A stretch of DNA of 35,126 nucleotides from a virus: IMG/VR virus record IMGVR_UViG_3300047546_000060, positions 1 to 35,126 of that record. The stretch is one strand, 5' to 3'. The translations under genes were made by a program, and so were the position numbers. Positions 2,989-8,952 of the stretch are shown in pieces. Positions within the stretch are counted from its first letter, which is position 1. Every line of letters starts with the position of its first letter. A model generated the notes under the pieces. The model had not been told where the DNA came from. It saw nothing but the letters and a program-made list of their open reading frames with translations, and ran no database searches.

Positions 2989-3160
2989 GAGTTTGTAAAG
3001 GATTATCTTTTAATTCAAATTCTCCGAGTTCTACTGTCCACCAGCTGCACTTGCATTCCTTGCAGACTCTACGTCTTTTGATCCAGTTTTTAGTCTCATG
3101 CGCCCTAGTCTCAGCTACCTTAATTTCATGACTATCACAGCCATCATTTACACAAATCAT
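2981..3160 (-). CDS. Zinc-ribbon microprotein (59 aa)
   Basis: 59 aa with cysteines at 3 and 8 (CVNDGC) and CKECKC at 33-38, separated by a basic stretch (WIKRRR). This looks like a small zinc ribbon that could bind nucleic acid or a protein partner. Its ATG overlaps the stop of the PP-loop gene (ATGA), so the two are translationally coupled. It is one of several cysteine-paired small proteins in this operon. Confidence 0.6.
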   Translation of the reverse strand: MICVNDGCDSHEIKVAETRAHETKNWIKRRRVCKECKCSWWTVELGEFELKDNPLQTHG

Positions 3161-3879
3161 TTGTTTAACTCTTGCTCCGCTATTTGACAGAAAATACTAC
3201 ATTCAATGTTTGGCTCTTGTGGGTAATTGCCATCAGTTGGCTTTAACTCATCGAGATATCTATCCTTAAATATAGTTTGCTTTTTAAATCTTTCGAGCTT
3301 TGCCATGCGGTCAAAATGCTCTGGGAAGTCAACCTTTATCTTGTTCCAGTAGCCCATGCCACCTTTAACGCAACCGATGCAGTTGTTATTGTGATACCCA
3401 AGTTTGTACATGGCTGGCAACTCGATACCAGCATTCTTTAACATTGCCAAACAATCCTCTTTGCCTAAGCCTTTATCAATTAATGGAGTCCAAATATTGA
3501 CATCAGCATTGGCATCTATGAACCGATCCAATCGAGCTTGCTCCTCTGCTGTATAACCAAATACTTGGCGGTCTGTAGGTTTCTCAAATCGCTCTCTAAT
3601 CTGTTTTTTTAATGCCCTGGTGCATGGTGCACCCTTGGGGGTTCGTATGTAATTCTTTTCAAACACCCGATAGATTGACCTATCGTAAAAATCATTGCCG
3701 AGAACCTCAATCTTCTGGCCAAACCATTGCTCACATTCAGCTAAGAACCTTTTGTTATCAGGATGCTCTTCTTTAACCTCCGTATAGGCTATGACCAATT
3801 CACTCTCTCTCTCTGCAAGCGCTATCTTGGTAGCCACAGCACTCGCAGCTCCACAGCTAAACCAACAGACTGTTCTCAT
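3157..3879 (-). CDS. PAPS reductase-like PP-loop (adenine nucleotide alpha-hydrolase) protein
   Basis: 240 aa. The N-terminal CWFSCGAASAVATKIAL (residues 5-21) is a variant PP-loop, the ATP/PAPS-binding motif of phosphoadenosine phosphosulfate reductases. It is followed by AYTEVKEEHPDN (31-42), a conserved CTRALKK (86-92), and a cysteine-rich part with NNCIGCVKGGMGYW (165-178) and two late cysteines (227, 231). Family members activate substrates with ATP; relatives reduce PAPS, thiolate tRNA or take part in DNA sulfur modification. The conserved cysteines suggest thiol chemistry or a metal/Fe-S site. Here it lies downstream of a cytosine methyltransferase and between zinc-ribbon genes, so a nucleic-acid modification role is possible but unproven. 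Start overlaps the upstream gene (ATGA). Confidence 0.75.
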   Translation of the reverse strand: MRTVCWFSCGAASAVATKIALAERESELVIAYTEVKEEHPDNKRFLAECEQWFGQKIEVLGNDFYDRSIYRVFEKNYIRTPKGAPCTRALKKQIRERFEKPTDRQVFGYTAEEQARLDRFIDANADVNIWTPLIDKGLGKEDCLAMLKNAGIELPAMYKLGYHNNNCIGCVKGGMGYWNKIKVDFPEHFDRMAKLERFKKQTIFKDRYLDELKPTDGNYPQEPNIECSIFCQIAEQELNK

Positions 3880-4184: not shown

Positions 4185-4336
4185 ATCCACCGCCTGACTC
4201 TTCCCTTTGCGCTTGTCTTCCAATATCCACCTTCTGTATGTACGCTGTATTGACAATTACTGCACCAACGCTTGCCAGTAATACTGGACTCAGCCTGGAC
4301 AGCCTTTGTGTATACGTCTTTATCGTGTGTGCCCAT
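4139..4336 (-). CDS. Zinc-ribbon protein (65 aa)
   Basis: 65 aa with CSNC at 25-28 and CKDC at 52-55, a four-cysteine zinc ribbon, flanked by basic residues (KGRVRRW, RRKTERESK). Small zinc ribbons of this type commonly bind DNA or RNA. The start lies inside the last codons of the methyltransferase gene (17-bp overlap), indicating co-translation with it. A partner or specificity role for the methyltransferase or the PP-loop protein is conceivable; nothing proves it. Confidence 0.65.
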   Translation of the reverse strand: MGTHDKDVYTKAVQAESSITGKRWCSNCQYSVHTEGGYWKTSAKGRVRRWMCKDCYRRKTERESK

Positions 4337-5042
4337 ATTCCAATCTATTCTTTAACAACTCAAATGCAACTGCTGCCACTTGTGGAACTTGTCCATTGCC
4401 AAGGGCTTTAAGTCTGTCCACTCTTGCGGCCACCCCATCAACCATTCGTACAGGTTCGGGTTGATTGAAGATGGTATGTAAGTTCCGTTTTTGATAGCAT
4501 TTTTGTAAGCCCCAGAGCCTCCAGCGTTCCCCCCCCCCGTTGGAGTTGTCGGAGTTGGCCACAATCCAGATCCGACTGCGCTTGTGATGCGCTCCAACTT
4601 CGGCTGCTGATACGACACCCCATTCTGCATTGAACCCCATTTGGGCCAAATCTCCAAGGACTGTGCCGAGTCCTCTTCTAGTGAGCATTGGGGAGTTTTC
4701 CACAAAGACGTATTTGGGTCGTACTTCGCCAATAATTCTGGCCATTTCTTTCCACAGGCCACTTCTTGATCCGTTGATGCCGTCACCCTTTCCATTGGAG
4801 GCAATGTCCTGGCATGGAAACCCTCCAGATATAACGTCAACAACTCCCTCCCATGGTCTTCCATCAAAGGTTTGAACGTCATCCCAAATCGGGAAAGGCG
4901 GAAGTATTCCATCATTTTGTCTGGCGAGCAATACGCTTGCTGCATATGGCTCCCACTCGACTGCACAGACTGTTCGCCATCCGAGCAATTTGCCCCCAAG
5001 TATTCCTCCACCAGCGCCTGAGAATAAAGCCAACTCATTCAT
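4320..5042 (-). CDS. C5-cytosine DNA methyltransferase
   Basis: 240 aa. Motif I (LFSGAGGGILG, 6-16) binds S-adenosylmethionine. GGFPCQDIA (73-81) carries the catalytic cysteine 77, ENS (115-117) is motif VI, HHKRSRIWIVA (152-162) is motif VIII, and LKALGNGQVP (211-220) is motif X. It would methylate cytosine in phage DNA, most likely to evade host restriction. The segment between motifs VIII and X is very short, leaving almost no target-recognition domain, and it contains a 10-G tract at residues 169-172. One G fewer would switch translation into a second open frame that also carries a plausible motif-IX-like end (see the separate entry). ATG overlaps the rusA stop. Confidence 0.85.
   Translation of the reverse strand: MNELALFSGAGGGILGGKLLGWRTVCAVEWEPYAASVLLARQNDGILPPFPIWDDVQTFDGRPWEGVVDVISGGFPCQDIASNGKGDGINGSRSGLWKEMARIIGEVRPKYVFVENSPMLTRRGLGTVLGDLAQMGFNAEWGVVSAAEVGAHHKRSRIWIVANSDNSNGGGERWRLWGLQKCYQKRNLHTIFNQPEPVRMVDGVAARVDRLKALGNGQVPQVAAVAFELLKNRLEYGHTR
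4352..5038 (-). other. Second long open frame overlapping the methyltransferase
   Basis: A 228-codon frame, shifted by one base, covers nearly the whole methyltransferase. Its C-terminal part does not look random: it includes SLWKTPQCSLEEDSAQSLE, then GLWPTPTTPTGGG, then NPNLYEWLMGWPQEWTDLKP. The last resembles motif IX of C5 methyltransferases (TPRE..RLMGFP), and I recall similar segments as authentic phage protein ends. It is most likely reached by frameshift at the G tract. Less likely it is an independent gene from the ATG at 5038, or only a conserved shadow frame. Confidence 0.35.
4529..4538 (-). repeat. Homopolymer of 10 G on the coding strand
   Basis: Ten consecutive C on the plus strand lie inside the methyltransferase coding sequence. 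Loss of one base joins motifs I-VIII to the alternative C-terminal frame. Tracts of this length are prone to slippage in replication and to errors in sequencing, so either phase variation or a base-calling error could be involved. Confidence 0.9.
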
Positions 5043-5392
5043 TTAATCTCTTCAATCATTACTTTGATAGAGCCACCCGGCACAATCTGTGAGCCACGAT
5101 AGATCGACAACTCATCGATTTGTGAGTCATCATCAAACAGGCCAGCATCTTGCAAGCTGTCTAACACACTCTTGATGCGGTTATCGATATCGAATACTCG
5201 CCTATCTCTTGGCCACACCACCATACTCACAGAGAGTCTCTTCGTACCCATTTTGGGAAAGTCACCACCAGAAATGTACTCGGCCACAGCTTGCTTGTAC
5301 TCTCGGCCAGCCTTACTCATGTAGGTGGCATGAGCGCCCCTACGATAGTAAGTATTGACCGATGGTGGGAACGGCAGCTCTAGGACAATCAC
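5039..5392 (-). CDS. rusA: RusA-type Holliday junction resolvase
   Basis: 117 aa, normal length for RusA. It opens with LPFPPSVNTYYR, the RusA N-terminal signature. Aspartates 68 and 70, lysine 74 and aspartate 89 reproduce exactly the spacing of the catalytic D70, D72, K76 and D91 of the E. coli enzyme. It cuts four-way DNA junctions, resolving recombination intermediates and probably preparing replicating DNA for packaging. GTG start overlapping the stop of the upstream regulator gene (GTGA). It complements the YqaJ exonuclease and ERF annealing protein encoded on the opposite strand at 7241-8952. Confidence 0.9.
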   Translation of the reverse strand: MIVLELPFPPSVNTYYRRGAHATYMSKAGREYKQAVAEYISGGDFPKMGTKRLSVSMVVWPRDRRVFDIDNRIKSVLDSLQDAGLFDDDSQIDELSIYRGSQIVPGGSIKVMIEEIK

Positions 5393-7240: not shown

Positions 7241-8197
7241 ATGGTAGGTAAGGTCACTCCCAACGATATGCTCTCCGCAAGCCGCCTCCCAGCGGTTTGT
7301 GGCATGAGCCAATATCGGTCACCCAATGATGAGCTGCTGGCAAGTATTGCGGCCATCAATGGTGAGGAATTAGAAAACATAACAAACGAGTCAATGGATT
7401 GGGGCAATCGCTTAGAGCCAACGATTCTGACTGAGGCGGCGCATCGGCTCGGCTGCCACCAGCTAGAGATTAACCATGAGAAACCCTACTTTCACGAGAA
7501 GTGGCCAATCTCATGCAGTCTTGATGGCACAGCCACAGGATCAATGGAAGAGGTCTTTACCGATCCTGAGCGTGGCATCTATGTGGTAGGTCAGTCTTCT
7601 ATAAGACTTGAGGGTACAGGCATCCTAGAGGCCAAGCTAACCAAGATGGAACCGGAGGATGTCTTGCCTTTGTATCGCGGCCCCATTCAGCTGCAAGCGC
7701 AGATGGCAATCATGAAAGCGACTTGGGGTGCTATCGCTGTACTGTATCAAGGCACAGAGCTGCGGATCTTCTTGTTTGCACCACACCAAGAAACACTAGA
7801 CCTCATTGAGACAACGTGCAAAGAGTTCCAGGACAAACTGGATCGCTATAAAAACACTGGTTACATTGACCACTATCCACCCATCAATCCAAAAGATGCG
7901 ACAAGGACGTGGCCAACAAGCTCAGATAGTGAGCTAGTTAAGCTGGATGATTATGGTGTGGAGCTGACCAAATTAATTCTAGAAAACAAGCAAAAAATAT
8001 CTAGGCTTGAAGAGGAAACGGCTAAAGCACAGACTGAGATTATGGGCATGATGCGAAACAGCACATACGCATTGGCTGGTGACTTTCAAATCACATGGCC
8101 GCAGCGTAACTACAAAGCCCAACCATCCAAGATTGTGCCAGCCAAAGAGGCTTACACAATTCGTCAATCAACATTAAACATTAAGGCACTCAAATGA
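7241..8197 (+). CDS. YqaJ-type viral recombinase exonuclease
   Basis: 318 aa. Motifs of the lambda-exonuclease/YqaJ nuclease fold appear in order: SRLPAVCGMSQYRSP near the N-terminus, GNRLEP with glutamate 59, SLDGT with aspartate 95, ILEAKLT with glutamate 130 and lysine 132 (the ExK pair), and QLQAQMAI with the conserved glutamine. It should degrade one strand of double-stranded DNA 5' to 3' using magnesium. The resulting single strand would be loaded by the ERF protein encoded next, with which it shares an ATGA overlap. The C-terminal third (residues 240-300) has a helical, partly coiled segment. Confidence 0.85.
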   Translation: MVGKVTPNDMLSASRLPAVCGMSQYRSPNDELLASIAAINGEELENITNESMDWGNRLEPTILTEAAHRLGCHQLEINHEKPYFHEKWPISCSLDGTATGSMEEVFTDPERGIYVVGQSSIRLEGTGILEAKLTKMEPEDVLPLYRGPIQLQAQMAIMKATWGAIAVLYQGTELRIFLFAPHQETLDLIETTCKEFQDKLDRYKNTGYIDHYPPINPKDATRTWPTSSDSELVKLDDYGVELTKLILENKQKISRLEEETAKAQTEIMGMMRNSTYALAGDFQITWPQRNYKAQPSKIVPAKEAYTIRQSTLNIKALK

Positions 8198-8952
8198 AAC
8201 TAATAGCAACCGCAATGGTCAAAGCTCAGAAAGAGTTTGGCCCAGCTCTGAAGACATCCACTAACCCGCACTTTCGCAGTCGTTACGCTGACCTCTCCGC
8301 TTGCGTGGAGGCAGTCATTGATGCGCTAAACAATAACGGCATCGCTCTGATACAGAAATGTAGCGAGTCTGATACCGGAGTCAATGTAGAAACATTGCTA
8401 CTCCATGAGTCTGGCGAGTCTCTGTCTTGTGGAGTTCTGCACGTTCCAGCCAGCAAGCAAGACCCACAAGGGTATGGATCAGCGCTTACCTATGCTCGCA
8501 GATATAGCCTGATGGCTGCCTGTGGGATAGCGCCAGAGGATGACGATGGCAATGCTGCCTCTAGAACCCCTAAAAACCCCCTAGATTCGCTTCCAAAGCT
8601 GGCTGGAGTACCTATCCCTACACCCACACCGAAAGTCGATTTAATGGCGATTAAAGAGGACATCCCTAATAGTGGTAAAAATACAACACTTCCAACTCCG
8701 GGTACGGTACGGCTCCAGATCCCCGGCAAGGATCCCATCGAGTGTAAAAACATTGAGGAGTTTATTAGCCAATACAACACAGTTGCGGACAAAGTAGCTG
8801 GCTCCAAGTTGGCGCTGGCTGACAAACAAAAGAAACTGCTTGAGTTCAACACGCTCAATAAACAGACTATTGAGTTACTTAACCCTATGCAAATGGTCAT
8901 AATGACCAGCGCAAAGCAGAATCGTAAGAAAGTATTAGATGGTGTTGCTTAG
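8194..8952 (+). CDS. erf: ERF-family single-strand annealing protein
   Basis: 252 aa. NPHFRSRYADLSAC (24-37), QGYGSALTYARRYSL (92-106) and GIAPEDDDGN (111-120) are hallmark ERF segments. A proline-rich linker (about 125-150) leads to a variable C-terminal domain. ERF proteins anneal complementary strands and promote circularisation or recombination of phage DNA; the upstream exonuclease supplies the substrate. Last gene of the rightward operon; its end overlaps the convergent endolysin gene by 18 bp, leaving no room for a terminator between them. Confidence 0.85.
   Translation: MKLIATAMVKAQKEFGPALKTSTNPHFRSRYADLSACVEAVIDALNNNGIALIQKCSESDTGVNVETLLLHESGESLSCGVLHVPASKQDPQGYGSALTYARRYSLMAACGIAPEDDDGNAASRTPKNPLDSLPKLAGVPIPTPTPKVDLMAIKEDIPNSGKNTTLPTPGTVRLQIPGKDPIECKNIEEFISQYNTVADKVAGSKLALADKQKKLLEFNTLNKQTIELLNPMQMVIMTSAKQNRKKVLDGVA

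Follow-up and report, generated by a model that had tools for sequence, protein, structure and literature searches.

A Probable Split Cytosine Methyltransferase Encoded in Two Overlapping Frames of a Phage Genome

Two Overlapping Reading Frames and Their Motifs

The window analyzed here is the whole stretch of 35,126 nucleotides (nt) of virus record IMGVR_UViG_3300047546_000060, and its subject is a C5-cytosine DNA methyltransferase gene (frame A) together with a second open reading frame (ORF, frame B) that overlaps almost all of it. An earlier note, made from the letters alone, had described a methyltransferase gene in which a run of ten G joins two alternative C-termini. Its coordinates for the 240-residue ORF and for the tract hold. 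The following features were recognized, TRD standing for target-recognition domain.

4320..5042, minus strand: frame A, predicted C5-cytosine methyltransferase catalytic subunit, 240 amino acids (ORF; PF00145, PHROG 363 and M.HhaI matches)
4352..5038, minus strand: frame B, overlapping ORF of 228 amino acids, proposed target-recognition and motif IX subunit (ORF, PHROG 1008 match, openness, constraint)
5034..5042, minus strand: twin start ATGAATGAG, with the ATG of A at 5042 and that of B at 5038, overlapping the TGA stop of an upstream RusA-like gene
5004..5033, minus strand: motif I region of A (LALFSGAGGG), where some relatives have tracts of 8–14 G
4809..4826, minus strand: catalytic motif IV of A (GGFPCQ), with P76 and C77 invariant among relatives
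4554..4580, minus strand: motif VIII region of A (RSRIWIVAN), placed by the ORF, the conservation in relatives and the M.HhaI match
4463..4561, minus strand: TRD-like segment of B (WPTPTTPTGGGNAGG...YIPSSI), the counterpart of the LPTP-rich TRD in actinophage methyltransferases that are read in one frame
4529..4538, minus strand: tract of ten G (ten C on the plus strand), read as Gly-Gly-Gly in both frames
4409..4462, minus strand: motif IX of B (NPNLYEWLMGWPQEWTDL), placed by its position across relatives and by a hidden Markov model (HMM) of B tails
4359..4418, minus strand: motif X region of A (RLKALGNGQVPQVAAVAFEL), overlapping the C-terminal tail of B

Frame A was matched by the Pfam family DNA_methylase (PF00145, 1.5e-30), by PHROG 363 (9.1e-62 in a profile search) and by M.HhaI. 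The Pfam match was confined to motifs I–VIII and the similarity to M.HhaI to residues 4–163. Motifs I–VIII, including the catalytic PCQ, are all present, and motif X (LGNGQVP) follows motif VIII after a linker of only about 45 residues, with neither a TRD nor motif IX between them. The earlier note was thus right to describe a main frame almost without a target-recognition region. The usual one-chain form, in which the TRD and motif IX stand in the same chain as motifs I–VIII and X, is not matched by frame A of the window.

Frame B is the +1 frame; it runs for 228 codons from its own ATG, 4 nt inside A. In a profile search its residues 65–175 matched PHROG 1008 (2.5e-19), and its C-terminal end (WPTPTTPT...NPNLYEWLMGWPQEWTDL) consists of a TRD-like part and the motif-IX-like segment that the earlier note had already pointed out. 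When the B tails of window-type loci were made into an HMM, it matched the segment between motifs VIII and X of single-frame actinophage methyltransferases (E down to 2e-12); the B tail is therefore homologous to the TRD–IX part of ordinary methyltransferases. Full-length relatives of B were found by tblastn in phages of Acinetobacter, Pseudomonas, Salmonella, Klebsiella and Vibrio, and partial ones in phages of Microcystis, Stenotrophomonas and others. Most window-type genes retain the ATG of B, whereas A may start with ATG, GTG or TTG. As to the two alternative C-termini of the earlier note, tails that depend on phase do exist, but the second frame is a complete overlapping ORF with a conserved ATG and goes beyond a tail reached by slippage. 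Being open over 228 codons and conserved as a protein, B was rejected as a short alternative tail. The finding therefore exceeds the earlier note: what lies over the catalytic gene is a complete, putative recognition subunit, overprinted and conserved across many phages.

The division of motifs between the frames was followed across the clades. Motif IX was read in B and motif X in A in 67 of 81 window-type loci, in 63 of 80 loci of the type of Paenibacillus phage Diva and in 58 of 79 genome loci; the Enterobacteriaceae loci L482 and L483 appear to have this arrangement too. Among the 80 Dorothy-type actinophage loci, 54 had motifs I–VIII, IX and X all in the A frame, as one frame (L383, L366 and L315, for example), and 10 were of a split form with both IX and X in B. 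Mycobacteriophage Catdawg illustrates the latter: gp6 holds motifs I–VIII, and gp5, in frame B, reads LPTP...VNPAFAEWMMGWPDGW...IIGNGVCPQQA, that is, TRD, IX and X, with this tail lying mostly beyond the overlap with gp6. The overlap of Dorothy gp71 and gp72 is just 23 nt. The actinophage TRD consists of LPTP-containing repeats in variable number (L313, 277–1605; L316, L366, L381), with about eight or more in gp80 of Arthrobacter phage KBurrousTX, which suggests that the recognition domain of these relatives grew modularly.

Selection Acts on Both Frames

Eighty viral loci gathered by frame A only served as an unbiased set, and the null was synonymous codon shuffling within each gene, which preserves protein A and its codon usage. 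The interior of B was free of stops in all 80 loci, while an open central part was expected in only 1.7 of them under shuffling; for the window gene itself, none of 300 shuffles left the central part of B open. The stops of B in these loci were confined to the start codon of A itself and to the last codons. Frame C had 7–27 stops per gene and behaved as the null (9.15 observed versus 9.51 expected). Bacterial genome loci selected by A with a GC content below 0.55 gave a similar picture, B being open in 13 of 14 versus 0.6 expected. Conversely, selection on B alone would leave 8.65 stops per gene in A, and none was observed.

Across 51 diverse window-type genes, the third-base identity at four-fold sites of A was 0.58 versus 0.26 expected. 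One explanation is that B remains open and looks conserved only as a passive consequence of the amino acids that A encodes and the codons that it uses. The conserved motifs of B do coincide with those of A, part of the similarity is indeed passive (a null identity of 0.29 out of 0.46), and frame C shows an identity excess similar to that of B (0.136 versus 0.168). Because third-base constraint lifts frame C too, raw conservation of B is weak evidence by itself. Since shared ancestry could also inflate third-base identity, and frame C identity was raised as well, a within-gene control was sought. It was provided by the Diva-type viral relatives (protein identity 50–60%), in which stops interrupt B over the first ~70 codons of A but not over the rest. 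The excess third-base identity (kappa) was −0.01 over codons 0–60, 0.31 over codons 60–110 and 0.50 over codons 110–165. The synonymous constraint on A in these genes starts where B starts. Together with the shuffling, which breaks B in nearly all genes, this control led us to reject B as a passive by-product. The tail of B moreover extends past the overlap in Catdawg and in other actinophages shares a frame with the catalytic half, so that passive origin is a most improbable explanation. Selection acts on both frames.

The start of B differs among clades: near model position 133 in the actinophages, near 73 in the Diva type and at codon 2 in the window type. From clade to clade, the overlapped share of A thus changes in steps, and the growth of an overprinted gene can be traced.

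A Probable Split Enzyme and Its Known Counterparts

Three lines of evidence, namely that B is conserved and open, that the constraint starts with B, and that in actinophages a single frame holds both the catalytic half and the module of TRD and motif IX, indicate that the locus is probably a split C5-cytosine DNA methyltransferase whose recognition subunit B is overprinted on the catalytic subunit A. A single mRNA would yield both proteins from adjacent ATGs, in fixed linkage. Frame A would supply the catalytic subunit with motifs I–VIII and X, frame B the subunit with the TRD-like segment and motif IX, and the two would assemble into one enzyme that methylates the phage DNA. From the sequences we infer that both proteins are made and form such a DNA-methylating complex.

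Besides the raised identity of frame C, several results weigh against this interpretation. B had no match in Pfam or NCBIfam, and a profile search of B against the PDB returned zero matches. No function is known for the N-terminal ~60–150 residues of B, which are missing from B in other clades. AlphaFold gave a predicted local distance difference test (pLDDT) value of 48 for B alone and 53 for a natural fused form; therefore, neither the TRD fold nor the interface of A and B is backed by structure. Alternatively, A might be a minimal methyltransferase that is active by itself, with B serving a separate function, such as that of a restriction inhibitor. All catalytic motifs are in A and the N-terminal half of B resembles no known domain, but A has neither a TRD nor motif IX, and motif IX of B is homologous to that of complete enzymes. 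We consider such a separate function unlikely.

Two-chain enzymes of this family have been described. M.EcoHK31I has two chains: the large one holds motifs I–VIII, X and a predicted TRD, and the small one holds motif IX (review, PMC3404938). This enzyme, which recognizes YGGCCR, is the nearest described one: its division into I–VIII plus X and IX is that of the window, a likeness at the level of the published motif layout. Its predicted TRD lies in the large chain, whereas the TRD-like segment of the window falls in frame B, as judged from its homology with enzymes that are read in a single frame. The small chain of M.EcoHK31I is, like B, read from another frame of the gene for the large chain. 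The window differs in that B covers the whole catalytic gene and a homopolymer lies at the joint. M.AquI (CYCGRG) is likewise a two-subunit C5-methyltransferase, its catalytic motifs I–VIII being split from the recognition half (PMC3404938). However, its small subunit holds both IX and X, as in the split actinophage form of Catdawg gp6/gp5, whereas motif X of the window is in A.

Among phages, the closest parallel in annotation is gp49/gp50 of Diva, where the product named "g49 internal gene" is the frame B ORF (PHROG 1008 match 1.1e-73). Unlike in the window, B starts well inside A there, the overlap is partial and no tract is present. The actinophage methyltransferases (Catdawg gp6/gp5, Dorothy gp71/gp72 and single-ORF L315, L366 and L383) share with the window the catalytic head, the LPTP-rich TRD and motif IX, but in them motif X stays with IX and the halves overlap little or not at all. 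A literature search of open papers found no description of this methyltransferase overlap in phages.

Annotation usually excludes long overlaps on the same strand, and that of the window is conserved among phages whose hosts span many bacterial phyla. It covers an entire, well-studied enzyme and would couple its two halves. Which frame is annotated differs by record, A in some and B, often as "hypothetical," in others. Since only the frame picked by the gene caller is annotated, many phage records show half an enzyme as hypothetical or name B a methyltransferase. PHROG 1008, which is labelled DNA methyltransferase, appears to gather frame B products, that is, the recognition half, and not catalytic proteins. 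In Klebsiella phage BUCT711 and Pseudomonas phage PS-1 (L005, L008), the region after the PCQ of motif IV is strongly divergent in both frames and both are open, as if a dual-frame segment had been swapped.

The Homopolymer Joint and the Neighboring Genes

The tract of ten G is the sole G or C run of at least 7 in the window; runs of 10 or more would number 0.012 there under a first-order model. Runs of at least 8 were found in 47 of 167 distinct window-type genes; the other 120 keep both frames without one, and dual coding is therefore independent of the tract. In total, 49 such runs fell in 137 kb of window-type genes versus 3 in 581 kb of flanks, which is about 70 times denser. The counts in the A-selected Dorothy-type, Diva-type and genome sets (~59–72 kb each) were 0, 1 and 1. 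The enrichment is specific to the fully overlapped clade. The runs, 8–15 nt long, recur at four sites, near nt 24, 46, 249 and 500 of the gene, and consist of G in some lineages and of C in others.

At the junction of motif VIII and the TRD, where the tract of the window lies, the tracts are of G or C according to lineage, and all three phases occur. Motif IX is in the phase of B in the window and others, in that of A in L015, L050, L052, L053, L278 and L305, which gives a fused I–VIII–TRD–IX chain, and in that of C in L054–L056, L059 and L304. The earlier note had predicted that loss of one G would link the head of A to the overlapping frame; L015, with ~90% DNA identity to the window, has nine G and is exactly that fused ORF. 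Two loci from different metagenomes, L047 and L054, are identical over 6,702 bp except for C12 versus C13 in the tract, and L055, from a third metagenome, matches L054 across the gene. Among near-identical actinophage methyltransferases (L312, L315, L379), CCC or CCCC at this junction separates the one-ORF from the two-ORF form (Dorothy gp71/gp72). In the assemblies, tract length thus differs among close relatives, and the phase sets which tail follows the catalytic head. The situation set against that proposal, a fixed tract length with only one frame under selection, was not found, both frames being constrained in the codon-level tests. All tract lengths were taken from assemblies, in which homopolymer length is error-prone, and at two contig edges that resemble poly-G artefacts (L040, 90–133; L043, 1–31), with spurious G beside the tract, they are not trustworthy. 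The three phases, the C12/C13 pair and the actinophage CCC/CCCC difference suggest, as judged from assembled sequences, that the joint is hypermutable and that its phase matters for the predicted products.

The G tract would then act as a joint whose phase gives the head of A either the motif X of frame A as its end, the split form, or TRD–IX, the fused form. A switch between these two forms is plausible but hypothetical. As an addition to the split methyltransferase reading and not an exclusive alternative, the tract may be a contingency tract at which replication, transcription or translation slippage toggles split, fused and off states and so alters the modification. The earlier note had proposed that such a change might help the phage to escape restriction. 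The density of runs and its limitation to the fully overlapped clade speak for such a switch, as do the G or C tracts at one junction in three phases and the C12/C13 and CCC/CCCC pairs. On the other side stand the error-prone lengths and artefact edges, the 120 genes without a tract, and the fact that a G or C run is an easy two-frame coding of Gly or Pro linkers. We regard the switch as a reasonable but tentative possibility. The fuller proposal, of overprinted halves with a hypermutable joint at which slippage toggles two-chain, fused and off states and at which G or C tracts were gained recurrently in several lineages, is a little more tentative still. Phase-variable DNA methyltransferases are known in bacteria, for example modM of Moraxella catarrhalis, where a change in repeat-tract length turns expression on or off. 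Whereas switches of the modM type work on and off, a phase change in the window gene would swap two recognizable tails. With a homopolymer at the joint, a switch of this split/fused kind lends itself to direct testing.

A further explanation is that programmed ribosomal frameshifting joins the head of A to the tail of B as the main product in all relatives. A linear I–VIII–TRD–IX chain would result, and natural fused ORFs of that kind exist (L015, L278, L305). However, most relatives have no homopolymer, B has its own conserved ATG, and a fused product of the window type would be without motif X; frameshifting as the general route is improbable.

The surroundings of the split methyltransferase locus contain the following genes.

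5039..5392, minus strand: RusA-like resolvase gene upstream of A, its stop overlapping the start of A
3157..3879: 3′-phosphoadenosine-5′-phosphosulfate (PAPS) reductase-like gene (PHROG 424, 5.9e-48), close downstream of the methyltransferase
7241..8952, opposite strand: RecE/YqaJ-like exonuclease and Erf-like annealing protein genes, a recombination pair

Translational coupling of A to the RusA-like gene through the overlapping stop and start is possible.
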